Source: an uncultured Gammaproteobacteria bacterium
GTDB taxonomy: Bacteria; Pseudomonadota; Gammaproteobacteria; Pseudomonadales; Azotimanducaceae
Length of the DNA stretch: 50,187 bases
Reading direction: 5' to 3'
NCBI GenBank assembly: GCA_913051785.1
Contig: CAJXCK010000004.1
Span: forward strand, 1-50,187
Shown: piece by piece, positions 18,248 through 48,744 of the stretch
How positions within the stretch are numbered: the stretch's first letter is position 1
Layout: the number at the start of each line of letters is the position of its first letter
The notes under the pieces: model-generated
The model's database searches: none
What the model saw: only the letters and a program-made list of their open reading frames with translations
Told to the model about the DNA's origin: nothing
Translations under genes and position numbers: made by a program

Positions 18248-19447
18248 ATGGCTAGCGAGGTACGAGCACTAACAGGCATACGCATTATCGATTTCAGCGC
18301 TGTTTTGGCTGGCCCCTTCGCAACTCAGCAACTCGCTCAACTGGGTGCAGATGTAATAAAAATTGAGCAACCAGGGACAGGAGATATGACCAGGGGACTG
18401 ATGGCGTCAACTAGCGACGGCATGGCTCCATCATTTCTCACCTGTAATTTAGGCAAACGCTCAATCACAATCGACCTAAAACACACCAGTGCAAAAACAA
18501 TAGTTTATGAGCTTGTTAAAACAGCGGACGTAGTCGTTGAGAATTTTAAACCAGGCACCATAGATCGGCTGGGATTCGGCTACGAATCTCTCAAGGCAAT
18601 AAATCCAAATCTGATTTACGCTTCCATATCTGGGTACGGGCAGAGTGGACCTAAATCAGAGTTACCGGCTTTTGATGGTGCAATTCAAGCTTCTTCCGGA
18701 ATGATGAGCATAAGTGGTCACAACGAGACAGGACCAACCAGGGCGGGTTATTTTGCAGTGGATATGAGCACCTCTCTAAATGCTGCCTTCGCTATCACCG
18801 CAGCTCTACTCAGACGAAATGTTACTGGCGAAGGTCAGCGAGTAGATATATCAATGATGGATAGCGCTGTAATGATGCAGGCACCTCAGTTTGGCAACTA
18901 CTTCTTAACCAAAAATCTTCCTGATCTGACCGGAAACCACTCGCCAACCAAACAACCAACCGCCAATGTTTTTGCAACTTCTGACGGATTTGTTCAAATA
19001 ATCGCGCTCAAGGAATCTCATGTACAGGAATTGTTTGAATTGGTAGGCCAAGGACAGGCCTACGCCCGGTTTCCCGATCCTGAGGTGAGATTGAAGAATG
19101 CGACTGAAATAGAAGAGCTACTAGAGCCAGCTATAAAACGGCACGATACTGAATTTTGGCTTGACTCACTCGGTCAATCCGGCATTCCATCAGCGCCAAT
19201 AAGAAGCCTGAGTCAGGTTGCGGAGGATAGTCAGTTTGATCACCGACTCACATTTACAGAAATAGAGAAACCTGGATCACCGGAAAATAAATTGAGGGTA
19301 GTCAGTGCAAGTCATTTGACTCACCCGGCCCCACCGAGCGTTCAACGAGACCCGCCTCAACTGGGTCAACACACAGTTGAGATACTAGACGAACTGGGGT
19401 TCAGCAAAGAGGATATAAGGAGCTTTCAAGATCAAAAAATTGTGTGA
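18248..19447 (+). CDS. Class III (CaiB/BaiF) CoA-transferase, copy 1
   Basis: A 399-residue family III CoA-transferase that moves CoA from a donor thioester to an organic acid through an aspartyl-CoA intermediate. The N-terminal signature is D-F-S-A-V-L-A-G-P-F-A-T-Q-Q-L-A-x-L-G-A-D-V-I-K-I-E. The expected catalytic Asp is D172 in A-V-D-M-S-T-S. G-Y-G-Q-S-G-P and Q-R-V-D-I-S-M-M-D-S are also conserved. ATG 18248 follows the unknown membrane protein gene by eight bases. A hairpin lies 12 bases after the stop. It is diverged from the other two copies in this window, so it is not a recent duplicate. The acid substrate cannot be predicted. Confidence 0.93.
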   Translation: MASEVRALTGIRIIDFSAVLAGPFATQQLAQLGADVIKIEQPGTGDMTRGLMASTSDGMAPSFLTCNLGKRSITIDLKHTSAKTIVYELVKTADVVVENFKPGTIDRLGFGYESLKAINPNLIYASISGYGQSGPKSELPAFDGAIQASSGMMSISGHNETGPTRAGYFAVDMSTSLNAAFAITAALLRRNVTGEGQRVDISMMDSAVMMQAPQFGNYFLTKNLPDLTGNHSPTKQPTANVFATSDGFVQIIALKESHVQELFELVGQGQAYARFPDPEVRLKNATEIEELLEPAIKRHDTEFWLDSLGQSGIPSAPIRSLSQVAEDSQFDHRLTFTEIEKPGSPENKLRVVSASHLTHPAPPSVQRDPPQLGQHTVEILDELGFSKEDIRSFQDQKIV

Positions 19448-20669: not shown

Positions 20670-21878
20670 TCAGCCTTCTGTAGAGCCGCTAAAAATAACC
20701 TCGGCCTTCAGCAAGGCCTTTATATGACTTTGATCGAAATCAAGCGATTCTAGTATCGATATGGTGTCAGCCCCGATATCTGGCGCCCTTGAAGGCTTTT
20801 TCTTAGCTTCTTCCAATATTGATAAAGGGCTGTTTATTGTTTTGACATAGTCACCCTCTCCCTCACCCGTCTCAACAATTATGTCGTTTTCTTTTATCTG
20901 AGGATCTTTGAGCACCTGAGCCATGGTTTGTGCGGGACCAAAAGTAATGCCGGCCTCTTCCAACGCTTCTGATATGGTTATGGAGGAATGCTTTATAAAT
21001 TCTTTATTAAGTTCAGTTTGCAAATCCTCTCTATTTCGCATCGCTAATCTAATCGTCAAGAATCGTTCATCCTCTAAAATATCAGGCCTACCAATGGCCT
21101 CACATAATTTAGGAAATTCGCGCTCCGTGTTAATGATCGCCAGCACAATATAATTTCCGTCTGCACATTTGTAACAAGCGCTTAAGGGATTTATCCATCC
21201 GGTCTTTTGACGATATTCACCGATATCGTTTCCAGCAATGGCACCCTGGAGAGCCATCCCGTTGGACCAAACACCGTTTGCTACTAGCGAGGTCGAGACG
21301 AAACAACCCACCCCCGTCTTTTCTCGGCGGTATAGTCCGGTCATGATTGCTCCAAATAGCGCGGTTGAGGTCGCGTGGTCTCCCATACCAGGAGCAGGCG
21401 CCAAAGGCGTTTGCTCGGGGTCGCGGATGAATTCCATAAGGCCGGATCTCGCCCACCAGGCTGTTGTGTCAAATGCTCTGCGCTCGGCATCGTCACCTTT
21501 TAATCCGTAACCGCTGATATGGGCGAATATGATTCTTGGGTTGATAGTCTTAACGGTTTCATATTCGAGTTCGTATTTCTTCAACTGTGCTGCTAAAAAA
21601 TTTGAGGTCAGTACATCAGCTTTTTCGAGAATCTTATGAACCAAGGCTCTGCCGGCGTCTTTATTCAGGTCAACAGCCAAGCTTTTTTTATTGCGGGAGG
21701 TAAGTAACCAGTGGTAGGGCACGGGATAACGGCCCACAAGACTTCTGTACCCGTCTCCTGATGGCGGCTCAATTTTTATGACATTAGCGCCGTAATCAGC
21801 CAAGATCGTTGCGGCTCCGGGCCCCGCAAGAAAAGTCGCAGCGTCGACAACCGTAATATCCTCAAGCAAATATTCCAC
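20670..21878 (-). CDS. Class III (CaiB/BaiF) CoA-transferase, copy 2
   Basis: A 402-residue family III CoA-transferase. N-terminal V-V-D-A-A-T-F-L-A-G-P-G-A-A-T-I-L-A-D-Y-G-A is the family signature, and D167 in G-M-G-D-H-A-T-S-T is the likely aspartyl-CoA nucleophile. Compared with copies 1 and 3 it has a divergent Y-P-V-P-Y-H-W-L-L segment before the K-K-S-L-A-V-D-L strand, so its substrate probably differs. The start is taken as GTG 21878, since GGGGGAGGAA lies two bases upstream. A longer GTG start at 21911 overlaps the CPXCG gene by four bases and would place that site inside the coding region. It is downstream of the CPXCG gene on the same strand. Confidence 0.92.
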   Translation of the reverse strand: MEYLLEDITVVDAATFLAGPGAATILADYGANVIKIEPPSGDGYRSLVGRYPVPYHWLLTSRNKKSLAVDLNKDAGRALVHKILEKADVLTSNFLAAQLKKYELEYETVKTINPRIIFAHISGYGLKGDDAERRAFDTTAWWARSGLMEFIRDPEQTPLAPAPGMGDHATSTALFGAIMTGLYRREKTGVGCFVSTSLVANGVWSNGMALQGAIAGNDIGEYRQKTGWINPLSACYKCADGNYIVLAIINTEREFPKLCEAIGRPDILEDERFLTIRLAMRNREDLQTELNKEFIKHSSITISEALEEAGITFGPAQTMAQVLKDPQIKENDIIVETGEGEGDYVKTINSPLSILEEAKKKPSRAPDIGADTISILESLDFDQSHIKALLKAEVIFSGSTEG

Positions 21879-21907
21879 CTTTCCTCCCCCTTTCTCTCTA
21901 CCTCGAT

Positions 21908-22141
21908 TCACACGTCGTCTTCATGAGACGCACGTACGTAAAAATCGTCCCCATCAATTACGATTTCCATCTCTATCGGCCTACAACAAACAAAACAGTC
22001 CTCAACATATCGGTGCGTCCCCTGACTTGAATCTACGATTATCTCGATCGATTCGCCGCAATAAGGACAATAAACATCTGCCTGCTCGGTATGTAATTTC
22101 AATCGCTCTCTACTAATTTTGAAAATCGTGCTAGTGTCCAA
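21908..22141 (-). CDS. CPXCG-motif cysteine-rich small protein
   Basis: A 77-residue zinc-ribbon-like protein with C25-P-Y-C28-G-E and C49-F-V-C52-C53-R-P, the signature of the CPXCG family, whose function is unknown. Typical members are about 60 residues and begin shortly before the first Cys pair. The frame as given starts at TTG 22141; a TTG at the codon for residue 14, preceded by purine-rich AGAGAGCGA, would give about 64 residues and fits the family better. The gene is divergent from the alpha/beta hydrolase only 24 bases away and lies upstream of CoA-transferase copy 2. Confidence 0.8.
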   Translation of the reverse strand: MDTSTIFKISRERLKLHTEQADVYCPYCGESIEIIVDSSQGTHRYVEDCFVCCRPIEMEIVIDGDDFYVRASHEDDV

Positions 22142-23068: not shown

Positions 23069-24373
23069 CTGACCCCGTAAATTATCATGCATCTTCTTGT
23101 CCAGAGGATAAAACCAAGCTAGTACGATAAGCGGCACCATTATCGCAGCTGGAGCGAGAGTGAACATCGTTTGTATGCCATCTAACGTTTCTGGAGTCTG
23201 CGGTTGATTCGCCACATAACCGACCACGCCCAGTCCCAACGCTACTCCAGAACCACCGACTGCTTTCGCTATCTTTTGGAAAAGACTAGACATCGAATAA
23301 ACGCTACCGTCGGCGCGAACACCCAACTTTTCTTCTGCATACTCAATCGTATCTGGCATCATCGCCCAGCCCATTACAGCGATAGGAGTACCACCCAGGG
23401 CTACTAAAATTCCCCACAGAAAAACCCATTCGATGGACGTCGGTTCTGTGAAATAGAAGCTGAAGCTAGACAGTATAGTAATCCCCGCACCAATAAAAAG
23501 AGCTCCATCTTTCCCGAACCTACTGGCGATCGAGGGCACGGCCGCAAGACCCAGAATCATCAAGCCTAACGTGCTCGCGAAAAAAAACGGGACTAAGTCC
23601 GGCTGGCCGACATTATATTTAAAATAGTAAAAAGCGAGTGATTGCCTGACCGTGAAACTGAACATGCCACAGCAAAATATGCCTATAACGATCAATAGAG
23701 GAGGATTAGAAAAAACTGAAGAGACGCTTTGCTTCAACGTGATCTGTTGTCCCTCTCGTGGCAGCACTTCTTCCTCTGTCGTCCAGAACGAAATGAAGAG
23801 AACACCCGAGGCAATAAGCGCAAATATGGCCAGCAAGACTTGCCATCCGAGAGTTTGATCCTCACCAAACATGCCAACAAAAGGTTGAGCGCCGACCGAG
23901 ACGATCCATCCGCCACCGAACGCACAGGCCATTCTTAGAGTGGACAGCTTCGTGCGAAAATCATAGTCAGGAGATATCGAGGCTGTTAATGCCGAGTAAG
24001 GGATTGTGACTACGGTATAGATAACGCCGAATAAAACATATGTTACATACGCCCAAATAATCTTCCCATCCATATCCGTATCTGGACTAGAAAAAGTCAG
24101 AACAGCAATGAGGCCTAGCGGCAAAGTGCCAAACAATAACCAGGGTCTCATTCGACCCCACCGTGATTGCGTACGCTCCGCCAATAAACCAATCAACGGA
24201 TCTGTGAACGCATCAATCAGGCGAGCAACGAAGAAAATACCGGCAACAACGAAAGGAGCTAGGCCAACCACATCGGTATAAAAAACCATCAGCCAGGTCA
24301 TCGTCGATATAAAGTAAAGATTTATACCAAAGTCTCCGACGGCGTAACCGAAGGCACTTTTATCCGAGGTCAA
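23057..24373 (-). CDS. GPH family sugar/organic-acid:cation symporter (MFS)
   Basis: A 438-residue membrane carrier of the glycoside-pentoside-hexuronide (MelB-like) family. The family motif is clear in A-R-L-I-D-A-F-T-D-P-L-I-G followed by S-R-W-G-R-M-R-P-W-L-L near residues 47-80. About 12 hydrophobic segments are present. The start is TTG at 24373, overlapping the CoA-transferase stop in the sequence TTGA, so the two genes are translationally coupled. AGAAGG lies upstream. Family members move sugars or related solutes with Na+ or H+; the coupling to a CoA-transferase suggests that the imported compound is an organic acid to be activated as its CoA ester. This link is inference. Confidence 0.9.
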   Translation of the reverse strand: MTSDKSAFGYAVGDFGINLYFISTMTWLMVFYTDVVGLAPFVVAGIFFVARLIDAFTDPLIGLLAERTQSRWGRMRPWLLFGTLPLGLIAVLTFSSPDTDMDGKIIWAYVTYVLFGVIYTVVTIPYSALTASISPDYDFRTKLSTLRMACAFGGGWIVSVGAQPFVGMFGEDQTLGWQVLLAIFALIASGVLFISFWTTEEEVLPREGQQITLKQSVSSVFSNPPLLIVIGIFCCGMFSFTVRQSLAFYYFKYNVGQPDLVPFFFASTLGLMILGLAAVPSIASRFGKDGALFIGAGITILSSFSFYFTEPTSIEWVFLWGILVALGGTPIAVMGWAMMPDTIEYAEEKLGVRADGSVYSMSSLFQKIAKAVGGSGVALGLGVVGYVANQPQTPETLDGIQTMFTLAPAAIMVPLIVLAWFYPLDKKMHDNLRGQLGR

Positions 24374-25560
24374 GACACGGCGCCTTCTGAGCGAAACCTT
24401 TCTATCTCGCTATCTTCAAATCCAAACCCGTATAAGATCTCCAACCCATTATCTCCGGGGTCAGGCGCCGAACGGTCGAACTGATCTGGATGCGGAAACA
24501 AGGACAGGTTGATTGGAGTTCTTATCAGACTAATTGAATCTTGAGTTTCAGATGGAGCCGGTTTCGCCATTTTCAAATACTTAACCTGCTCATCTTCGAA
24601 CGCCTGACCAATATTGTTAATGGGCCCACAAGGAACACCGGCAGAATTCAGCCTCTCGACCAATTCAGAAACAGAAAAATTAGCAGTGACAGAATTCATA
24701 TCTCGTTTGACGTCATCTTTATATCTCATTCGATCTCTTACATTTAGATATCTCGAGTCTGCGAATAATTCGTTCGCGCCGAGGGCTTCACAAAACCTAC
24801 CCCACATTCGATCACCGAACGCCGCGATATTGACGTGACCGTCCTTTGCTAAAAAGGTACCCATGGGGACTTGAGTAGGATGATCATTTCCCTGCTGTTC
24901 TGCGACCTCCCCGCTCATCGTATATCGAGCACCTTGAAAATCTAATTTACACAGCATGGACTCGAGAAGAGACGTATGAACCCATTGACCCTCGCCAGTT
25001 CTCTCCCTGTGAAATAACGCGAGCAGGATTCCCTGGCCTAAAAACATCCCTGCCGACGTATCCGATATTGCTACGCCAACCCTCATCGGTCCTCGACCGG
25101 GTTCGCCCGTCACAGACATCAAGCCACTCATACCCTGAATAATTTGGTCTACCCCAGGCCGATTACTATAGGGACCATCTTGACCGAAACCAGAAATACT
25201 CGCATAGACTAGGCGCGGATTTATCTTCGATAAGGTTTCATAGTCAACATTAAGACGATACTTCACATCGGCACGAAAATTCTCAACGACCACATCAGCC
25301 TCTTTGACCATCTTATGAAAAAGCATCTTTCCAGTTTCCATTTTTAAATTAATAGAAATAGACCGCTTATTCCGATGTAAATTTTGTTCATCAGGACCGC
25401 GACGCGCGCCCGTGACAGAATTTCCCGATGAGTCTTTTTGAGGAATCGGCTCAACTTTCACGACGTCCGCTCCCCAGTCTGATAACAGTCTAACTGCTGT
25501 TGGACCCGCTCTCGCAATGGTCAAGTCCAAAACTCTCAATCCCTTTAAAGGCCCTTCCAT
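24370..25560 (-). CDS. Class III (CaiB/BaiF) CoA-transferase, copy 3
   Basis: A 396-residue family III CoA-transferase with D-L-T-I-A-R-A-G-P-T-A-V-R-L-L-S-D-W-G-A at the N-terminus, R-N-K-R-S-I-S-I-N-L, G-F-G-Q-D-G-P-Y and the likely catalytic Asp D167 in I-S-D-T-S-A-G. The presence of A-R-A-G-P in place of A-G-P-F follows the formyl-CoA/succinyl-CoA transferase-like subgroup with a longer N-terminal loop (about 45-65). ATG 25560 is preferred because GGGAGG lies about nine bases upstream. The gene is coupled to the GPH transporter downstream and is divergent from the SRPBCC gene, whose long open frame runs back into its 5' end. Confidence 0.92.
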   Translation of the reverse strand: MEGPLKGLRVLDLTIARAGPTAVRLLSDWGADVVKVEPIPQKDSSGNSVTGARRGPDEQNLHRNKRSISINLKMETGKMLFHKMVKEADVVVENFRADVKYRLNVDYETLSKINPRLVYASISGFGQDGPYSNRPGVDQIIQGMSGLMSVTGEPGRGPMRVGVAISDTSAGMFLGQGILLALFHRERTGEGQWVHTSLLESMLCKLDFQGARYTMSGEVAEQQGNDHPTQVPMGTFLAKDGHVNIAAFGDRMWGRFCEALGANELFADSRYLNVRDRMRYKDDVKRDMNSVTANFSVSELVERLNSAGVPCGPINNIGQAFEDEQVKYLKMAKPAPSETQDSISLIRTPINLSLFPHPDQFDRSAPDPGDNGLEILYGFGFEDSEIERFRSEGAVS

Positions 25561-25642
25561 CAATCAACCTCCCAATCCGAACGATTTGACCCTTTCCTTC
25601 GTTGAGCATACCGCTATCATTTGGAAAAAGCAGGAGCCCCAA

Positions 25643-37234: not shown

Positions 37235-39439
37235 TTACATTCCAGCATATTTTACTTTTGCTTCCCGCCGACGAGCATGAAGAACAGGCTCGGTATACCC
37301 ACTAGGTTGCTCCGTTCCTGCGAAAATCAAGTCGCAAGCAGCCGCAAAGGCCACACTATCATCGAATCCAGGCGTCATATTGCGATACTCGGCATCCCCC
37401 TCATTTTGCTGATCCACCACGGCAGCCATTCTTTGTAAGGTTTCCTGAACTTGTTCTTTCGAGCAGATGCCATGATGCAACCAGTTAGCAATATGCTGAC
37501 TGGAAATACGAAGCGTTGCCCTATCTTCCATGAGGCCAACATTATTGATGTCGGGAACCTTGGAACAGCCAACTCCCTGATCTATCCAACGAACCACATA
37601 CCCCAAGATGCCTTGTACATTGTTGTCCAATTCCTTCTGCACCTCTTCTGATGATAAATTTTCTCCTGCAAGCAAAGGTATCTTCAAAATATCATCCACT
37701 CGTGCACTGGTTCTTTGCGACAAGTCTTCTTGAACAGAGGAAACAGCAATCTCATGATAATGAAGAGCGTGAAGCGAGGCGGCAGTTGGAGATGGCACCC
37801 ATGCGGTTGACGCACCGGCCTCAGGATGACCACGTTTTACATCAAGCATTTCTGCCATCTCGTCAGGTTTTGGCCACATCCCCTTTCCTATTTGTGCTCG
37901 ACCCCGAAAACCGGTAGAGAGTCCGACGTCAACGTTCGAGTCCTCATAGGCCTTAATCCAGGTTTGGGCCTTGATGACTTCCTTCGCCAAAACAGCTCCG
38001 GCTTCCATGCTGGTATGAATTTCATCCCCGGTTCTATCTAAGAAACCAGTGTTAATAAACACAACACGGTCCTTGGCCTCATAGATACACGCTTTCAGAT
38101 TTATGCTTGTGCGCCTTTCCTCATCCATTATTCCAATTTTGAGCGTGTTTCTCGCAATACCAAGCGTTTCTTCAACGTGGTCAAGAAGTGCAACGGCCAT
38201 GGCGACTTCGTCAGGCCCGTGCATTTTCGGCTTCACAATGTAGACGCTTCCAGCCCTTGAATTCTTTGCACCGTTTGTCTTTTTTAAATCGTGCATCGCG
38301 GCCAGTGATGTAACAAAACCGTCTAGGATACCCTCCGGAACCTCCTGCCCATCTCCATCCAAAACAGCATCTGTGGTCATCAAATGACCAACGTTGCGAA
38401 CAAGCATCAAGCTCCGACCGTGCATGATGAGAGGTTTCCCTTGGACACTTAGATATTCACGATCGAGGTTCAATGTTCTGGTTAGCTTTTTACCGTTCTT
38501 CTCAAGCACCTCTTGCAGGTCGCCCTTCATTAGACCGAGCCAATTGGCATAGACAACACATTTATCTTCCGAATCAACAGCTGCCACAGAGTCTTCACAA
38601 TCCTGAATCGTCGTGACCGCTGATTCGATGAATACATCTTTCACTCCAGCCTTGTGAACAGCTCCAACCGGGTGTGTTGGATCAATCAAAATATCAAAAT
38701 GTAGACCATTGTTTTGAAGCAGGATGTTGGTGGGCTCGGATTCGTTTACGAAACCGACGAACTGGCCCGGATCCTTCAAAGAAGTGTTGCCTCCATTGTC
38801 TAATATTGCACGTAGTTCTCTCTTCCCGTCAGATGAGGACCCAATACCGTATGCGGCGACGTCGGAATGGCTCCCGTCACTTAAGGGAAAAACCGAGTCT
38901 AGGACTGTCGCAACTCGCTCAACAACGAGCTCACCTCTAGCGGGGTTATAGCTTCCACCTTTTTCTCTGCCAGGTGACTCAGGAATTATATCCGTGCCGT
39001 AAAATGCATCGTATAAACTGCCCCATCGAGCATTGGCTGCATTAATCGCATACCGGGCATTCATCACCGGCACGACAAGCTGCGGTCCAGCAAGACTCGC
39101 AATTTCTTCGTCAACATTGGATGTAGTGATCTCAAAATCATTTGGCTCTGGAAGCAGGTAACCGATCTCCTGAAGGAAAGCTTTATATTCCTTTTCATTT
39201 AGTACCTGCCCTTTTCGTTCCAGGTGCCAGGCGTCAATTTTCTGCTGCAATTGATCGCGGATCTCGAGGAGCTTTTTATTGACTGGGCCCAACTCGCCCA
39301 AGCACTTTTCTAAGCCGCGCCAAAAACCTTCGAGCTCTACCCCCGTGCCCGGCAAAATCTCCTCAAGCACGAGCTGGTCTAGATCTTGTGCAACCTGCAG
39401 TGTTCCTCTTTGAACGCGTCCATTTTCTGAGACAACCAT
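37235..39439 (-). CDS. glcB: Malate synthase G
   Basis: Malate synthase G condenses glyoxylate with acetyl-CoA to malate, letting the cell grow on acetate, glycolate or other two-carbon sources. The 734 residues match isoform G (about 720-740). Recognisable blocks are [50 protein letters not shown] and the late G-V-G-C-S-K-V-P-D with [16 protein letters not shown] lies upstream of ATG 39439. The gene is divergent from the halohydrin-dehalogenase-like gene across 95 bases. No isocitrate lyase gene is in the window. Confidence 0.97.
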
Positions 39440-39534: not shown

Positions 39535-40218
39535 ATGAGCAAGAGATTAGAAGGGAAAAGGGTTCTAGTAACTCAATCCAATAATTATATGGGACCAGCA
39601 ACGATCGAGTTGTTTGAGAAAGAAGGAGCAATTGTAACAGCCGATTCTTCCGACCTTACCGAAACTAACAGATGCAACGACTTAATAGAGTCAGCTGGTA
39701 TTATCGACATTCTTGTAGCCAACTTAGCGTCTGAAAACTTTAGCGGCATTCCGACATCTGACTTAACGGATGAAGATTGGAACACCGCCTTCGACGTGAT
39801 GGTTCACCCTTTACATAAACTGTCTAGAGCAGTTATTCCTCAAATGGTCGAGCGCCAGGCAGGGAAAATCATAGTCTATGGCAGCGCTTCAGCTCTCAAG
39901 GGTATGCGAACCCTGGCCGCCTATAGCGCAGCAAGGTCGGCGCAGGTTGGTTACGTTCAGTCCCTCGGCGTTGAGCTTGCTCCTCACAATGTCCAAGTGA
40001 ACTTAATTGCACAGAATTACGTTGAGAACCCTATCTACTATCCAGAATCGTTGCGGTCCCAAGAGAAATTCCAGAATTCACTAAAACGGCAGGTGCCTCT
40101 GGGAAGGCTCGCTCGCGCCGAAGAGGATGCTCAATTCGCGTTATTCCTCGCATCAAATGAAAGCGATTTTTTTGTCGGGCAAGCGATTCCATTCTCCGGT
40201 GGGTGGGTACAGAGGTAA
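39535..40218 (+). CDS. Probable halohydrin dehalogenase (SDR-derived)
   Basis: Halohydrin dehalogenases convert vicinal halo-alcohols to epoxides plus halide, reversibly and without NAD(P). The 227-residue protein has the SDR fold but not its signatures. T13-x4-Y18-x-G20 replaces the Gly-rich cofactor loop, and S117-x12-Y130-x3-R134 replaces the usual Ser/Tyr/Lys with Arg. Both are the motifs that define this family. N161-Y162 followed by P-I-Y-Y-P at 166-170 matches the halide-site loop of HheC-type enzymes (N-Y ... P-Y-F-Y-P). The C-terminus S-G-G-W-V-Q-R is shorter than in HheC. The call is from motifs only; substrate and halide are unknown. Glyoxalase I and a GST follow on the same strand. 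Confidence 0.8.
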   Translation: MSKRLEGKRVLVTQSNNYMGPATIELFEKEGAIVTADSSDLTETNRCNDLIESAGIIDILVANLASENFSGIPTSDLTDEDWNTAFDVMVHPLHKLSRAVIPQMVERQAGKIIVYGSASALKGMRTLAAYSAARSAQVGYVQSLGVELAPHNVQVNLIAQNYVENPIYYPESLRSQEKFQNSLKRQVPLGRLARAEEDAQFALFLASNESDFFVGQAIPFSGGWVQR

Positions 40219-40268: not shown

Positions 40269-40688
40269 ATGAAGTACCTGCACACGATGGTTAGAGTGGC
40301 GGATCTAGACGACTCACTGAAGTTTTATTGTTCGGCACTCGGACTAACAGAGCTACGTCGATATGAGAATGAGCAAGGGCGCTTCACCTTAGTATTTCTA
40401 TCCGCGCCAGAGGATGAAGAAGCGCAAGTCGAACTTACCTATAACTGGGATACTGAAGACTATGACGGTGGACGCAACTTTGGCCATCTGGCCTATAACG
40501 TAGATGATATTTATGAGAGCTGCGAAAGACTGCGGGATCATGGAGTCGTTATAAACCGACCACCAAGGGACGGTTACATGGCATTTGTAAGATCACCGGA
40601 TGGTATTTCAGTGGAGTTACTGCAAAAAGGAAAACCTCTCGAATCAAAAGAGCCGTGGAAAAGTATGGAGAACGTGGGAGAATGGTAA
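40269..40688 (+). CDS. gloA: Glyoxalase I (lactoylglutathione lyase)
   Basis: GloA turns the methylglyoxal-glutathione hemithioacetal into S-lactoylglutathione in the cytoplasm. The 139-residue VOC protein carries the four metal ligands at expected places: H5 in L-H-T-M-V-R-V, E55 in V-E-L-T-Y-N-W, H73 in F-G-H-L-A-Y, and E116 in S-V-E-L-L. The length and the T-Y-N-W pattern are those of the short bacterial, usually nickel-dependent, type. A strong GGGAGGAG lies upstream of ATG 40269. It sits 50 bases after the dehalogenase-like gene and 26 bases before the GST gene. A related VOC glutathione lyase activity cannot be excluded. Confidence 0.9.
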   Translation: MKYLHTMVRVADLDDSLKFYCSALGLTELRRYENEQGRFTLVFLSAPEDEEAQVELTYNWDTEDYDGGRNFGHLAYNVDDIYESCERLRDHGVVINRPPRDGYMAFVRSPDGISVELLQKGKPLESKEPWKSMENVGEW

Positions 40689-40714: not shown

Positions 40715-41329
40715 ATGAAACTTTATAACTCTGTTGGGCCCAACCCTCACGTTGTGAGGATGTATGCAGCCGAGTGCGGCGTAGCCTTAGAACTGGAAGA
40801 AGTCGATCTGATGGGAGGAGCTAACCGCCAAGAGGACTACCTTAAGCTCAATCCTTCGGGTCAGCTACCTTGCTTAGAAACCGAAGCTGGCAATCTCATT
40901 GCCGAGGTGACAGCCATCTGCGAATACATTGATGAAAAAGCGGATGGGGTGACGTTAATCGGGACTACCGACGAAGCCAGAGCTAATACAAGGATGTGGA
41001 CGAGAAGAATAGATTTAGGAATATGCGAACCTTTAGCAAACGGATTTCGATACAGTGAAGGTTTACCAATTTTTAAAGATAGAATGACCACCATACCTGC
41101 GGCAGCAGAGGGATTGAAACAGATAGCCCGAGAAAAAATGTCTTGGCTGAACGATCAGATGGACGACGGACGACCTTTCATTGGCGGCACGGTAGTGAGC
41201 CTGGCAGACGTCGTGCTTTACTGTTTCCTGAACTTTGGCAAAGCCATCGGCCAACCGTATGACGTGGAACTTAGTAATTTGAATGCGTGGTTCGAATCAA
41301 TGAATGCTCGGGAGACTGCAACCGCGTAA
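40715..41329 (+). CDS. Glutathione S-transferase
   Basis: A 204-residue cytosolic-type GST. The thioredoxin-fold N-terminal domain has N-P-S-G-Q-L-P52-C-L-E with the cis-Pro, and A-E64-V-T-A-I-C-E-Y-I-D, where Glu binds the glutathione gamma-Glu and Val replaces the more usual Ser. The helical C-terminal domain has the late F-I-G-G-T-V-V-S-L-A-D-V-V-L motif (N-capping box). GGAGG lies eight bases before ATG 40715. Its place after the dehalogenase-like gene and glyoxalase I suggests conjugation of epoxides or other electrophiles to glutathione; this is inference. Confidence 0.9.
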   Translation: MKLYNSVGPNPHVVRMYAAECGVALELEEVDLMGGANRQEDYLKLNPSGQLPCLETEAGNLIAEVTAICEYIDEKADGVTLIGTTDEARANTRMWTRRIDLGICEPLANGFRYSEGLPIFKDRMTTIPAAAEGLKQIAREKMSWLNDQMDDGRPFIGGTVVSLADVVLYCFLNFGKAIGQPYDVELSNLNAWFESMNARETATA

Positions 41330-41491: not shown

Positions 41492-42643
41492 ATGAAAAAG
41501 ACTTACGCTTGGTCTATAGGGATTGCTGTAGCCATTTTGGGCTGGCTTGGGTCGGGGCTGTATTTCACGGAAGGCAAGTCAATCGAGCCATCAATAGCGG
41601 ATCAGAGGCTGCGTGATGCCGAGGTAGCAGCTGACCGAATTCCTACCAACGTAAAAATAAAAAGCTCGGTCGCCAAAGAGATCACGAGATACTCCACCAC
41701 CAGCGGTAAGACACAAAATAAACGAACAGTTGTTACCAGAACTGAAACAACAGGAAAAATAGTCTCTCGGCCTGTGGAAAGAGGCGACTTCGTCAAAGCT
41801 GGTGCTGTACTGTGCGAAATATCGGTGGAAGACCGGAAAGCCACACTCACTGAGGCAGAACAACGCCTTGCTCAAGCAAAAATCGATTTTCTCGGTGCAC
41901 AAAAACTGAGGAAACAAGGTTTCAATTCGGAGAGTGCCATCGCGGCGGCCAAAACAATGCTTGCTCAAGCCCAGGCGAGCCTCAAGCGCAGCCTCGTTCA
42001 GCTTGAAAAAACGAAGGTTCATGCGCCTTTTGATGGGATCGTAGAGCAGGTGCACTTAGAAGAAGGTGATTTCGTCAATCCGGGCCAAGCTTGTGGGACA
42101 GTGATCGATCTTGACCCCATGCTCTTGACGGCGCGGGTGTCGCAAACGGAAGTTCAAGACTTAAAGACTGGTATGAGGGTGCGGGGAACCATAAACGGTA
42201 CACAGACAATCTTCGGAGCTATTACTTTTATTGGAAGCCAAAGTGATGTCGAGACACGAACCTATCCCATAGAGGTTCAGGTGGCCAATGAAGATCTGAA
42301 GTACAGGTCCGGTTTTTCGGTCGAAATAGAAATCCCGATGGGAGAGACCTTTGCACATCAAATATCCCCCGCTCTACTGACCCTCGATGATCGGGGTGAT
42401 GTGGGCATTCGCGTAGTGGACGAAGAAGCCAGAGTACAATTTTATAATGTCTCGATCGTCGCCGAAGATCTCGCCGGGGTTTGGGTGAGTGGACTCCCTT
42501 ACAAGACTGATATTATTACAGTAGGACAAGAGATTGTGGTTGCCGGTGAGAGAGTAACTGCCTCCTACTCATCGAACCAAGGAATCACACAAAATATTTC
42601 CAATACAATTGGCGCTGCCTCTTCAGCAGGACTGAGCCCATAG
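41492..42643 (+). CDS. RND efflux periplasmic adaptor subunit (HlyD/MFP family)
   Basis: A 383-residue membrane fusion protein that links the inner-membrane RND pump to an outer-membrane channel. It has an N-terminal membrane anchor (about 5-24), then a split lipoyl domain (G-K-I-V-S-R-P-V-E-R-G-D-F-V-K and V-H-A-P-F-D-G-I-V-E-Q-V) around a short coiled-coil hairpin (about 118-175), then beta-barrel domains. GAGGA lies upstream of ATG 41492. It is longer at the N-terminus than AcrA-type proteins and has no lipobox, so it is anchored by its helix. The pump gene follows four bases later; no outer-membrane channel gene is near. Confidence 0.93.
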   Translation: MKKTYAWSIGIAVAILGWLGSGLYFTEGKSIEPSIADQRLRDAEVAADRIPTNVKIKSSVAKEITRYSTTSGKTQNKRTVVTRTETTGKIVSRPVERGDFVKAGAVLCEISVEDRKATLTEAEQRLAQAKIDFLGAQKLRKQGFNSESAIAAAKTMLAQAQASLKRSLVQLEKTKVHAPFDGIVEQVHLEEGDFVNPGQACGTVIDLDPMLLTARVSQTEVQDLKTGMRVRGTINGTQTIFGAITFIGSQSDVETRTYPIEVQVANEDLKYRSGFSVEIEIPMGETFAHQISPALLTLDDRGDVGIRVVDEEARVQFYNVSIVAEDLAGVWVSGLPYKTDIITVGQEIVVAGERVTASYSSNQGITQNISNTIGAASSAGLSP

Positions 42644-42647
42644 TACG

Positions 42648-45600
42648 ATGTTCAAAATAATTGAGGCCGCGGTCAAGCGGCCCCGAACGACCTTACTTCT
42701 TATGGCGATGATTGTGATCACAGGCCTGATATCAAGAAGTAACATCCCTATCGAATCCGACCCCCAAGTAGATGTGCCTTGGTTCGCAATCACCATCATT
42801 CATGAGGGCATTTCGCCAGAGGATGCGGAGCGGATGCTCATCATGCCGATGGAGAAAGAACTGAGGCAGGTCGAGGCCATCAAAGAGATGACAGCATTTG
42901 GTTCAGAAAATGCTGGAACCATCATGCTCGAATTTTCTGCGGGAACTGACATGAACGTGGCACAACAGGATGCCAGAGAAGCCGTTGACCGAGCAAAAGC
43001 GGAGCTCCCGAACGAAGCTGAAGAACCTATATTGCAGGAGATGAGCCCGAACGATTATCCAACTATTAACATCAACCTTAGCGGGGATGTTCCAGAGCGA
43101 ATGCTTTACGGCATCGCGCTAGATTTGAGGGATCAGATTGAATCTATACCAGAGATTCTCGAGGCGGAACTCTTCGGAGCGCGAGAGGAAGTTCTAGAGA
43201 TAGAGATAGACCCTCTAGAGTTAGAGACGTACCAGCTTTTACCAGAGCAAATCATTAACACGGTTATGAGGAACAATCGCTTAATCCCAGCGGGTAATCT
43301 TGACGGAGGAAAGGGAAGTTTTTCCGTCAAGGTTCCTGGCATAATTGAAAACTACGATGATCTGTTCGATCTCCCCTTAAAAACCGATGGTAATAGGGTC
43401 ATCACACTCCAAGATATCGCGAAAGTAAGAAGAACATTCAAAGACAAGACCGGGTACAGCAGAGTCAACGGTGAAGACACCATGAGACTAGCCGTCACAA
43501 AGCGGGTCGGTGCGAACGATATTGATACATCAAAAGCAGTTAAGGATATCGTCGAGAGCGCTAGGCCAGGGTTGCCAGCGGAGGTGAATTTGTTCTATTC
43601 GCAAGATGTTGCGCCAATGTCATTGAAAACCGTCAATGAATTAGAAGGCAATCTTTTGACAGCACTCGGACTCGTGATGGTTATCGTCGTCGCTGCAATG
43701 GGTCTGCGAAGCGGAATCATTGTTGGATTAGGAATTCCGGTGTCATTCCTTTTTGCGATGATTTTTATCACTCAATTCGGCTTTACGTACAATTTTATGG
43801 TGATTTTTGGAATGCTCCTTGGCCTCGGCATGCTAATCGATGGTGCAATCGTCGTAACAGAATACGCCGACAGAAAAATGACGGAGGGCGCCAGTCGCGG
43901 AGAGGCCTACCTGACCGCGTCTCGAAGAATGTTCTGGCCTGTAACTGCTTCAACGGCAACCACCCTGGCCGTTTTTCTTCCCCTGATGGCTTGGCCCGGA
44001 GTATCGGGTCAGTTCATGAGCTATTTGCCTATTACGGTATTTTGCGTATTAAGCGGCTCGCTACTTTATGCTCTTATTTTTGGACCAACTATCGGTGCAC
44101 TTTTCGGGAAAGCAGGACAAAGTACTCCCGATGCAATAGAACATCAAAGCATCTTGGATACGGGCGACCCTAAAAAATTAGCTGGCTTCACTGGTCTCTA
44201 CGCAAGGCTACTTGGCTTCTGCGCCCGAAATAGTGTGGGGGTTTTACTCTTAACCTTCACGATCTTAGTCGCAACCTTCTGGTCATACGGTCAATATGGA
44301 GCAGGTGTTATTTTTTTCAATGCTGGAGAAGTGGATCAGGGGCAAGTCAGCATCAGAGCGAGAGGAAATTACAGCGTCGATGAGATTAGGGATATCATGG
44401 TCGAGGTTGAATCCCAGGTATTAAAGGTTGAGGGAATAGAGAGTCTGGACTCCTACACACTCGCCGGAGGAGATATGTCTCCAAATAGTAGCAATGACAA
44501 GATTGCTGGTATGTATCTGCAACTTTACGAGCGAAACCTTCGAGAAAGGCCAAGCTCGGAAATCTTCGATGAGATAAGACAACGAACGGATAACTTTCCT
44601 GGCATCGAAATAGAAGTTCGCGCAGAGGAAATGGGCCCACCCACGTTTAAGGATATTCAGATTGAATTAGCTTCTTATAATCGCAGTCTTCTTGATCCCG
44701 CCGTTGATAAAATTGTGAACTATATGGAAACGGAAGTCAGCCAGATCAGAGATATAGAAGATAGCAGAGCCTTACCGGGAATAGAGCTTCGTTTTGCTGT
44801 CGACAGAGAGCAAGCGGCTTTGTACAACGCCGACGTAACCCAAGTCGGGATTGCGATACAACTCATAACTAATGGTATCAAGGTTGGCGAATACCGACCG
44901 GAGCGGGCGGATGATGCTGTTGATATTCGAGTTAGGTATCCCAGAGAAGAGCGCGGCTTGCTGGCTTTCGAAAAACTCAAGATCAGCACTAACAACGGGC
45001 TAGTGCCAATGTCGAACTTTGTAAGACTGGAACCCGCTCAACGAATTACCACGGTAGAGAGGAGGGATGGGATACCCGTTAAAAACATTCGAGCGAATGT
45101 CGAAACTGGTGTGATACCAGATAATAAAGTAAAAGAAATAGAAGCCTGGGTACGAAACCAAGATTGGCATCCGGAACTTCGCATCAAATTCAGAGGTGCT
45201 AACGAAGAACAAAACGAGTCAATCGAATTCGTGGGAGCCGCCTTCGGTCTATCCTTACTCCTTATGTTCGTACTAATGGTCACCCAATTTAACAGCTTTT
45301 ATCAGTCAGCCCTTGTGCTCTTTGCCGTAGTACTTTCAACTGCGGGAGTCTTTATCGGACTGCTGGTAACGGGTAACGCCTTTAGCGCAATTCTAACAGG
45401 CACGGGAATCGTTGCTTTAGCCGGTATCGTTGTTAACAACAATATAGTGCTGATCGACACTTACAATACACTGAAAAGGGAAAGCCCAAACGCAGACTAT
45501 ATAGATATTATTGTCAGAACGGGTGCACAACGATTAAGACCAGTTCTTTTAACCACAATAACAACAGTTTGTGGGTTGATTCCTTTGGCCAACAATATGA

Positions 45601-45836
45601 GTGTTGACCTTATTAATAGGGAGATCCAACAAGCTGGGATGATGTCATCTTTCTGGACCCCTCTCACTCAAGCGATTGCATCGGGACTTACATTTGCCAC
45701 TGCGCTAACTCTTGTCACGACTCCGGCAATGCTGGCGATACCTCATCAAATAAGAGGTATGCACCATCGGTTCAGCAAAAAGTTACCGAAACTCGGACTT
45801 AAAACTCTGGGGAATCGCCCAGTATCCGGTGGATAG
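42648..45836 (+). CDS. RND efflux permease (HAE-like)
   Basis: A 1062-residue inner-membrane pump with the RND layout: first helix, a large periplasmic loop, six helices, a second loop, and five more helices. Family marks include P-Q-V-D-V-P-W-F-A-I, the T-E-Y-A-D-R-K after helix 4, and the P-L-A-N-N-M-S region near the end. In helix 4 the sequence is M-L-I-D398-G399-A-I-V-V, so the second of the two Asp used by AcrB-type pumps is Gly. In helix 10, G-I-V-V-N930-N-N-I replaces the Lys of AcrB with Asn. Proton coupling must therefore rest mainly on D398, as in some other RND branches. The cargo is unknown. Confidence 0.95.
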   Translation: MFKIIEAAVKRPRTTLLLMAMIVITGLISRSNIPIESDPQVDVPWFAITIIHEGISPEDAERMLIMPMEKELRQVEAIKEMTAFGSENAGTIMLEFSAGTDMNVAQQDAREAVDRAKAELPNEAEEPILQEMSPNDYPTININLSGDVPERMLYGIALDLRDQIESIPEILEAELFGAREEVLEIEIDPLELETYQLLPEQIINTVMRNNRLIPAGNLDGGKGSFSVKVPGIIENYDDLFDLPLKTDGNRVITLQDIAKVRRTFKDKTGYSRVNGEDTMRLAVTKRVGANDIDTSKAVKDIVESARPGLPAEVNLFYSQDVAPMSLKTVNELEGNLLTALGLVMVIVVAAMGLRSGIIVGLGIPVSFLFAMIFITQFGFTYNFMVIFGMLLGLGMLIDGAIVVTEYADRKMTEGASRGEAYLTASRRMFWPVTASTATTLAVFLPLMAWPGVSGQFMSYLPITVFCVLSGSLLYALIFGPTIGALFGKAGQSTPDAIEHQSILDTGDPKKLAGFTGLYARLLGFCARNSVGVLLLTFTILVATFWSYGQYGAGVIFFNAGEVDQGQVSIRARGNYSVDEIRDIMVEVESQVLKVEGIESLDSYTLAGGDMSPNSSNDKIAGMYLQLYERNLRERPSSEIFDEIRQRTDNFPGIEIEVRAEEMGPPTFKDIQIELASYNRSLLDPAVDKIVNYMETEVSQIRDIEDSRALPGIELRFAVDREQAALYNADVTQVGIAIQLITNGIKVGEYRPERADDAVDIRVRYPREERGLLAFEKLKISTNNGLVPMSNFVRLEPAQRITTVERRDGIPVKNIRANVETGVIPDNKVKEIEAWVRNQDWHPELRIKFRGANEEQNESIEFVGAAFGLSLLLMFVLMVTQFNSFYQSALVLFAVVLSTAGVFIGLLVTGNAFSAILTGTGIVALAGIVVNNNIVLIDTYNTLKRESPNADYIDIIVRTGAQRLRPVLLTTITTVCGLIPLANNMSVDLINREIQQAGMMSSFWTPLTQAIASGLTFATALTLVTTPAMLAIPHQIRGMHHRFSKKLPKLGLKTLGNRPVSGG

Positions 45837-47607: not shown

Positions 47608-48744
47608 ATGAGCGAAATCACTCCGTTTGAAATTGAAATCGCCGAAGATGTTATCTTCGATCTAAAAGACAGACTGTCTCGCACGCGTTGGCCCGACAAG
47701 GAAACAGTAGACGATTGGACACAAGGCGTCCCACTCGATTACCAAAAAAAGTTAATGGATTACTGGCTTAATGAATATGACTTTCAACGCCTTGCACGCC
47801 GATTAAATCAATATGACAACTTCCATACTCCAATAGAAGATTTATCCCTTCACTTTATTCATGTTAAATCTAGTCACACCCATGCTAGGCCTCTACTTCT
47901 TAGTCACGGCTGGCCTGGGTCGATAGTAGAGTTCCTGAAAGTGATCGGTCCGCTCACTGAACCCCAAGAATTTGGGCTGGATGACAGAATTGCCTTCCAT
48001 TTAGTTATACCTTCACTACCCGGTTATGGATTTTCAGGCAAGCCTGCACAAACCGGTTGGAGCGTGGAAAAAATGGGAGAAACCTTTTCAAAACTGATGG
48101 CCCAACTCGGCTACAGCAGCTATTTTGCGCAAGGCGGTGACTGGGGCTCTGCAATCACTTCTGCAATCGCAAGGCAAGACCCGGAGCATTGCGCTGGCAT
48201 TCATCTGAATATGATTACAGTTCCTCCTGATCCAAATGCTGAAGATTTGACCGAGTTAGAACTCTCTGGCCTTGCCGGATTAAAGCATTATCAAGACTGG
48301 GACTCGGGTTACTCCAAGCAACAAGCGACCCGCCCTCAGACCTTGGGATACGCGTTAACGGACTCACCAAGCGGGCAGGCCGCCTGGATTCTGGAAAAAT
48401 ATTGGTCTTGGACTGATTGCGATGGCGATCCAGAAAACGTTCTTAGCAAAGATGAGATGCTTGACAATATTATGGTGTATTGGATCAACCAAACAGCCGC
48501 GTCCTCTGGGCGATTATATTGGCATAGTTTCGGAAGGGGACCTCAACCTACGCAGGTTCATGTGCCGATGGGCGGCACCGTATTCCCGAAAGAGATATTT
48601 AGAACAAGCAAAAGATTTGCGGAGAAAATGTATACCAATATCGTGCACTGGACAGTTAAAGATAAAGGGGGGCATTTTGCGGCCTTCGAGCAGCCAGACA
48701 TCTATATCGAGGAAATTAGAGAGTGTTTCGATAAGATGGACTAG
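47608..48744 (+). CDS. Epoxide hydrolase (EHN-domain, mEH-like)
   Basis: A 378-residue alpha/beta-fold epoxide hydrolase that opens epoxides to diols. The N-terminal EHN domain (about 5-110) begins P-F-E-I-E-I-A-E-D-V and contains the R-W-P-D typical of microsomal-type enzymes. The oxyanion motif is H100-G-W-P-G. The nucleophile is D178 in G-G-D-W-G-S, Y304 (R-L-Y-W) is a likely ring-opening Tyr, and H356 in G-G-H-F-A-A-F-E-Q-P is the base. There is no signal peptide or membrane anchor. AGGAAAAAG precedes ATG 47608. It shares a transcript with the SDR upstream. It fits a role in epoxide removal alongside the dehalogenase-like gene 8 kb away. Confidence 0.93.
   Translation: MSEITPFEIEIAEDVIFDLKDRLSRTRWPDKETVDDWTQGVPLDYQKKLMDYWLNEYDFQRLARRLNQYDNFHTPIEDLSLHFIHVKSSHTHARPLLLSHGWPGSIVEFLKVIGPLTEPQEFGLDDRIAFHLVIPSLPGYGFSGKPAQTGWSVEKMGETFSKLMAQLGYSSYFAQGGDWGSAITSAIARQDPEHCAGIHLNMITVPPDPNAEDLTELELSGLAGLKHYQDWDSGYSKQQATRPQTLGYALTDSPSGQAAWILEKYWSWTDCDGDPENVLSKDEMLDNIMVYWINQTAASSGRLYWHSFGRGPQPTQVHVPMGGTVFPKEIFRTSKRFAEKMYTNIVHWTVKDKGGHFAAFEQPDIYIEEIRECFDKMD

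Follow-up and report, generated by a model that had tools for sequence, protein, structure and literature searches.

Halohydrin dehalogenases (HHDHs) are defined by two sequence motifs, T-X4-F/Y-X-G and S-X12-Y-X3-R, and are described as carrying a nucleophile pocket in place of the NAD site (PMC4989007). In the mechanism given in the same source, the serine binds the substrate hydroxyl, the tyrosine acts as the base and the arginine lowers the pKa of the tyrosine. An established order of steps from a haloalcohol to a diol is that for dichloropropanol, in which HheC acts first and is followed by EchA (PMC5539299). The gene analysed here was found in a 50,187-nucleotide stretch of DNA (the window) from an uncultured gammaproteobacterium of the Azotimanducaceae (contig CAJXCK010000004.1), and was compared with these enzymes by motif, sequence search, phylogeny, predicted fold and gene neighbourhood.

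The ORF, its motifs and its fold

The HHDH gene (39535..40218, + strand) was assigned from its ORF, motifs, PDB search, tree and fold search, and read directly as an ORF of 227 aa with an ATG start and a TAA stop. Motif 1, T13-x4-Y18-x-G20 (39571..39594, +), with the letters T13 Q S N N Y18 M G20, satisfies T-X4-F/Y-X-G and would form part of a nucleophile pocket instead of the SDR Gly-rich loop. Motif 2, S117-x12-Y130-x3-R134 (39883..39936, +), satisfies S-X12-Y-X3-R through S117, Y130 and R134, the predicted catalytic triad. A putative halide-site loop, N161-YVENPIYY-P170 (40015..40044, +), was delimited by its invariant residues and by alignment with HheD2 and HheB. The original prediction had named both motifs, as well as N161-Y162 and P166-I-Y-Y-P170, and each was found exactly where claimed when the residues were read off the ORF with numbering from Met1. 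In an alignment of 47 sequences, G20, S117, Y130, R134, N161, Y162, Y168 and P170 were invariant, as were V163, E164 and N165 of the putative loop; T13 was nearly so, and the position of Y18 was occupied by F in some sequences, which is within the motif definition. The classical SDR signature, TGxxxGxG plus Tyr-x3-Lys, was absent, with Arg134 replacing the Lys. The protein lacks the Gly-rich NAD motif, and its predicted pocket residues are conserved.

The specificity of the motif pair was assessed on distinct full-length ORFs taken from 155 fetched loci and from the window itself. Of 123 distinct HHDH-like ORFs, 120 had the pair at the correct spacing, as against none of 44 distinct other SDR ORFs, among which motif 1 alone occurred once, motif 2 never and TGxxx[A/G]xG in 40. 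The three HHDH-like exceptions were L018 (an N in the Tyr codon), L065 (motif-1 Thr to Ser) and L123 (motif-1 Gly to Asp). All four window SDRs tested carried the classical Gly-rich motif and none the HHDH pair. Counted per locus, in a set of 108 that contains the window gene itself (L081) and in which a few MAG loci recur, the pair was found in 105, the third miss being the truncated L070; among loci added later it was found in 39 of 40. Matched SDR fragments, several of them cut at the motif-1 end, gave 0/6 for SDRs of the same genome and 0/26 in a second set. The co-occurrence of both motifs is thus in excess of chance.

A PDB search returned HheB (4zd6, 9.4e-71, with its mutant 5b12), HheD2 (7b73, 2.5e-68; identified as such in PMC9629495) and HheD8 (8xxb, 1.6e-66; a triple mutant according to the entry title) as the closest solved proteins. 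These were followed by 6a41, called a dehalogenase (2.3e-29), by the first NAD-type SDR, 8xwk (2.5e-26), and by FabGs at about 1e-21. Identity of the window protein was 53% to HheB, 51% to HheD2, 50% to HheD8 and 31% to HheC; three ordinary SDRs encoded in the same window gave 23-31%. An AlphaFold monomer model, built with 47 aligned relatives as input, had a mean pLDDT of 89.1 and a pTM of 0.89. Foldseek placed chains of HheD2, HheB and HheD8 at ranks 1-9 (E 9.1e-27 to 7.6e-25), followed by 6a41 (4.7e-18) and then by NAD-dependent SDRs from 2.3e-17, some nine orders of magnitude behind the HHDHs.

Family models label the protein as an SDR only: it matched three SDR families in Pfam, and the best 25 of 191 NCBIfam matches held no HHDH model. 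This would suit a conventional SDR reductase that uses NAD(P) and matches the motifs by coincidence. However, those 25 matches all lay far under their cut-offs, TGxxxGxG is missing, the Lys of the triad is an Arg, identity reaches 50-53% with HheB, HheD2 and HheD8 but 23-31% with the three window SDRs, and the motif pair occurred in 0/44 other SDR ORFs. We regard such a reductase as extremely improbable, and an ordinary SDR identity was rejected on motifs, tree and fold. The HHDH identity was borne out by sequence search, tree and fold search, and the gene product is almost certainly, judged from sequence and model, an HHDH that would convert halogenated alcohols into epoxides. It was also proposed to be a new member with a short C-terminus unlike that of HheC. 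It is indeed a new sequence, of a known enzyme family, and the extension is indeed absent; as a peculiarity the short C-terminus did not stand, since HheC is described as the only one with the extension (PMC4989007) and the short form is thus the family norm.

Phylogenetic position and distribution

In a tree of 109 rows, which held no HheE sequence, had HheC as a long branch and had bootstrap values not fully settled, six SDRs of the window's own genome were split from all HHDHs at 100/97. The window protein grouped with characterised HHDHs, and not inside the NAD(P)-binding SDRs. The D sequences, among which L109 is HheD2 itself (100% identity), formed their own 100/100 clade with the window sequence outside it, and HheB paired with the Pseudomonadales sequence L106 at 99/94. 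The D clade, the HheB pair and the window sequence with its relatives shared an 88-row group (98/99) with no resolved inner order. The window sequence lay in a 21-row group (90/81) with neither B nor D members, a group below the star level of the tool, and no starred set of the tree contains it. L106, which is 57% identical to HheB and comes from a genome of the same order as the window, is possibly a non-actinobacterial B-type enzyme.

Subtype D did not fit the window protein, which lies outside the D clade and is 51% and 50% identical to the two named D enzymes compared, HheD2 and HheD8; HheD19 to HheD38 are reported at 57-95% identity to verified D enzymes (PMC4989007). Membership of the B/D-like branch of HHDHs forms part of the joint explanation given below and shares its standing as probable. 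Within that branch, the protein may represent HheE, which published schemes place near B and D, or a subtype without a name.

The enzyme family had been called small in the original prediction, a description that did not survive the survey of genomes. A scan of genome contigs confirmed at least 101 relatives, of which the best 80, mostly from gammaproteobacterial MAGs, were 50-76% identical to the window protein; MAGs titled K189A clade (L005), HTCC2089 (L023) and OM182 (L045) were among them. Within the window's genus, a match at E <= 1e-60 was present in 35 of 40 genomes and in 21 of 21 high-quality genomes, the window's own included, and carriers ranged from 1.6 to 6.0 Mb (one of them 2.4 Mb). 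The five genomes with no match were 58-75% complete. Two of these were checked: in G036 the EHN gene is on a contig of 3,915 bases and in G035 the sequence breaks off within the VOC gene, and as both contigs end before the expected place of the HHDH they are not shown absences. Across the taxonomic family, at a threshold of 1e-55, at least 115 of 200 genomes (77 of 128 high-quality) held an HHDH of one or other of two clades, one match each, with 80 matches at >=59% identity and 35 at 47-53%; these counts are lower bounds, since scoring covered a subset of the initial candidates. Matches fell to 29/390 in the order sample and 4/398 in the phylum sample, own genome included. On plasmids the best match, from Novosphingobium, was 54.5% identical and the 19 others among the best 20 of 188 were 32-34% identical, values that lend no support to a recent plasmid origin. 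As a further part of the joint explanation, the HHDH is probably a native core function of these marine bacteria rather than a recent adaptation to pollutants.

Seven relatives (L034, L036, L038, L070, L072, L079 and L080) lie on contigs labelled outside the Gammaproteobacteria, as Deltaproteobacteria, Acidimicrobiaceae/Acidimicrobiales, Poribacteria, Acidobacteria, Dehalococcoidia and Rhodothermaeota, and these labels reflect either horizontal transfer or binning errors.

A second HHDH clade (L096-L105 and L114-L135), from the same family and order, was 46-53% identical to the window protein and, for the 12 sequences compared, 38-45% identical to HheB, HheD2 and HheD8; both motifs were present in all of its members except L123. 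As far as sampled, the 35 family matches at 47-53% belong to this clade. No family genome had more than one HHDH match, and the two clades thus seem mutually exclusive. An EHN gene was found near members of the second clade at 5 of 32 loci (L097, L099, L116, L122 and L128), upstream only, at 4.6-6.6 kb.

Neighbouring genes and the EHN-type epoxide hydrolase

The proposed partner of the HHDH is an EHN-type epoxide hydrolase (47608..48744, +), which matched Pfam EHN and whose closest solved proteins are the epoxide hydrolases 5f4z and 4i19. It lies 7.4 kb downstream of the HHDH in a different operon. At a threshold of 1e-30, an EHN match was present in 37 of the 40 genus genomes and 20 of the 21 high-quality ones, with 65 matches in the 40 genomes. 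When the best EHN match per genome was considered for the 35 same-genus HHDH genomes, both genes shared a contig in 22, and in all 22, window included, the EHN gene was on the same strand and 7.4-26.3 kb downstream. In the remaining HHDH genomes the EHN lay on another contig (nine), only a different paralogue of 55-57% identity was found (three), or there was none (one). By itself this synteny within one genus could be inherited gene order.

Elsewhere, of 126 distinct HHDH rows, 11 had an EHN gene no more than 3 kb away, in every case downstream and in the same orientation, at distances of 62 bp to 1.8 kb; the other 115 had none within 3 kb, and 10 rows had less than 1.5 kb of downstream sequence. 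From about 1.6 EHN matches per genome, the chance of finding one within 3 kb is estimated at well below 1%. All 11 rows fell in a single 29-row group of the tree (93/87), so that tight adjacency may have arisen once and then been lost. Mapped as a label on the tree, adjacency required four changes, at least two of them forced, between which the tree does not distinguish gains from losses. The close-adjacent copies were 52-57% identical to the window EHN and the same-genus syntenic copies 62-77%, so that HHDHs in two settings have EHN neighbours of two different types, a pattern that suggests, short of proof, separate origins of the linkage.

Immediately downstream of the HHDH, after 50 bp, is a VOC protein near lactoylglutathione lyase (40269..40688, +; Pfam Glyoxalase), which scored 118.2 bits against TIGR00068, whose cut-off is 120. 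It is followed by a glutathione S-transferase-like protein (40715..41329, +; Pfam GST_N and GST_C), an HlyD-type membrane-fusion protein (41492..42643, +; Pfam HlyD_3) and an RND efflux pump of the AcrB family (42648..45836, +; Pfam ACR_tran). Among 80 loci, where neighbour counts are lower bounds as some have short flanks, a VOC gene follows the HHDH in the same orientation in at least 35 and a GST gene in at least 34; a VOC match was present in 33 of the 40 genus genomes. Since unrelated genes separate this block from the HHDH in many loci, VOC-GST-HlyD-RND is likely to be chromosomal backbone, within which VOC and GST might still be dedicated pathway partners.

On the other side, malate synthase G (glcB; 37235..39439, -; Pfam malate synthase) is divergent from the HHDH. 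It was found divergent and within 1.4 kb upstream in at least 24 of the 80 loci, and is replaced elsewhere by a Liv-type ABC transporter or other genes, with LivH divergent within 250 bp in at least 14. A link to glycolate/C2 metabolism through malate synthase G was not adopted, given its presence in 24/80 loci and its replacement elsewhere, and we regard the gene as backbone outside the proposed pathway. No LivH relative was found in the window genome, in a search that had no positive control there. The divergent Liv-type operon at L040:1363-7902 contains a fatty-acid CoA ligase-like gene, a possible sign that the substrate in those lineages is of acyl type. At 11 loci (L050, L051, L054, L061, L062, L064, L065, L067, L068, L069 and L077) a gene of the PPOX class (TIGR03668, annotated as F420-dependent) was also seen about 3 kb or less downstream of the HHDH. 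The window itself holds three family III CoA-transferases within 7.4 kb (18248-19447, 20670-21911 and 24370-25563).

At least 12 of the 80 loci have an HpaB-like gene downstream of the HHDH and co-directional with it, at 32-156 bp in 11 and at 547 bp in L046. This HpaB-family flavoenzyme is exemplified by L035:8751-10142, with copies 80-92% identical to it at the 11 other loci. Its best solved matches are 4-hydroxybutyryl-CoA dehydratase and vinylacetyl-CoA isomerase, both Fe-S acyl-CoA enzymes. In the alignment all four positions of 1u8v that we take to be the Fe-S ligands (C99, C103, H292 and C299) were missing; assignment to either enzyme was rejected on this basis, and a flavin monooxygenase is thus likelier.

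A probable monooxygenase beside the HHDH in 12/80 loci would fit a natural role in which the enzyme works in reverse or independently of halide, opening epoxides with chloride, bromide or another small anion for detoxification or biosynthesis; the epoxides would be products of these bacteria's many oxygenases. HHDH catalysis is described as reversible, with several anions accepted (PMC4989007). HTCC2089-type genomes, moreover, are reported to be rich in oxygenases and to have predicted epoxide hydrolases, and their authors suspect that these bacteria break down algal secondary metabolites or else hydrocarbons (PMC8371827, in whose main text the word 'dehalogenase' does not occur). The window probably lies in or near this clade, as its named relatives L005 and L023 share the gene order. 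Against this, an EHN that recurs near the HHDH would draw on the same pool of epoxide. The window genome, moreover, yielded no HpaB in a search that had no positive control there, although the same query matched 43 of 200 family genomes, and HpaB also occurs without an HHDH match, as in G049. A reverse or halide-independent role is therefore unlikely, and epoxide formation followed by EHN-catalysed hydrolysis is the reading that we prefer.

Proposed pathway and comparison with characterised HHDHs

The explanation we favour, and hold to be probably correct as a whole, is a cofactor-free B/D-like HHDH that is native and core in these marine Gammaproteobacteria and acts with the downstream EHN in a route from halohydrin to epoxide to diol. 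Its catalysis is inferred by analogy with characterised HHDHs, and its pairing with the EHN in one pathway is likewise inferred. Ser117 would hold the substrate, and Tyr130, its pKa reduced by Arg134, would deprotonate the hydroxyl of a vicinal halo-alcohol. The resulting alkoxide would expel the halide, for which motif 1 and the N161-P170 loop would provide the pocket, and close to an epoxide that would most likely be hydrolysed to a diol by the EHN. More speculatively, the GST, the glyoxalase-like protein and the RND pump could limit the damage done by reactive intermediates, and the substrates could be bromo- or chlorohydrins produced by algae or haloperoxidases. Natural sources of halohydrins, algae among them, are assumed here from general knowledge, as the open-licence literature yielded no paper that brings together bromoperoxidase, hypobromous acid, seawater and phytoplankton.

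The natural leaving group could instead be other than a halogen, as in a beta-cyano or beta-nitro alcohol, with halide a substitute used in assays. Known members of the family accept cyanide, nitrite and azide (PMC4989007), and no established natural substrate of HHDHs was found in the portions of the literature covered. The marine setting is, however, rich in halide, and pairing with an epoxide hydrolase would suit any leaving group and offers nothing specific to a non-halogen one, so that we hold this to be very unlikely and retain a halohydrin as the substrate.

More tentatively, and with rather less than even confidence, we suggest that the protein represents a distinct HHDH subtype, core to the metabolism of an uncultured, oxygenase-rich marine lineage, which with the EHN consumes natural bromo- and chlorohydrins of phytoplankton. 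If so, natural organohalogen cycling, and not industrial pollution, would be the setting in which HHDHs arose. The family is known mostly from pollutant degraders, and the steady proximity of an EHN in marine relatives points to a natural role. The enzyme family itself was already known; what is new is a genus-wide core HHDH with a recurring epoxide-hydrolase neighbour. No report of a core HHDH paired with an epoxide hydrolase in marine bacteria was found in the open-licence literature, which is weak evidence of absence. Core presence in 21/21 high-quality genomes, together with repeated proximity of the epoxide hydrolase, makes the natural role of the family testable, with organisms, partner enzyme and expected product all named. 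The 120 distinct full-length ORFs with both motifs are also a resource for biocatalysis.

Among the characterised enzymes, HheC of Agrobacterium radiobacter (1pwx) shares the two motifs with the window protein, but is the most distant in identity of the four, has a C-terminal extension and carries Phe rather than Tyr in motif 1. Its known pathway is completed by an epoxide hydrolase (PMC5539299), of which the EHN is the proposed counterpart in the window. HheD2 (7b73) and HheD8 (8xxb) are the top fold matches of the window protein, but fall, unlike it, inside the D clade. HheB of Corynebacterium sp. N-1074 (4zd6), whose 53% identity extends over 220 residues, resembles the window protein in its length of 227 aa, in both motifs, with Tyr in motif 1, and in its fold, and differs from it in grouping with L106. 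The two also differ in source: the HheB strain is described as having come from enrichment on toxic compounds (PMC4989007), and the window gene belongs to the core gene set of its genus.
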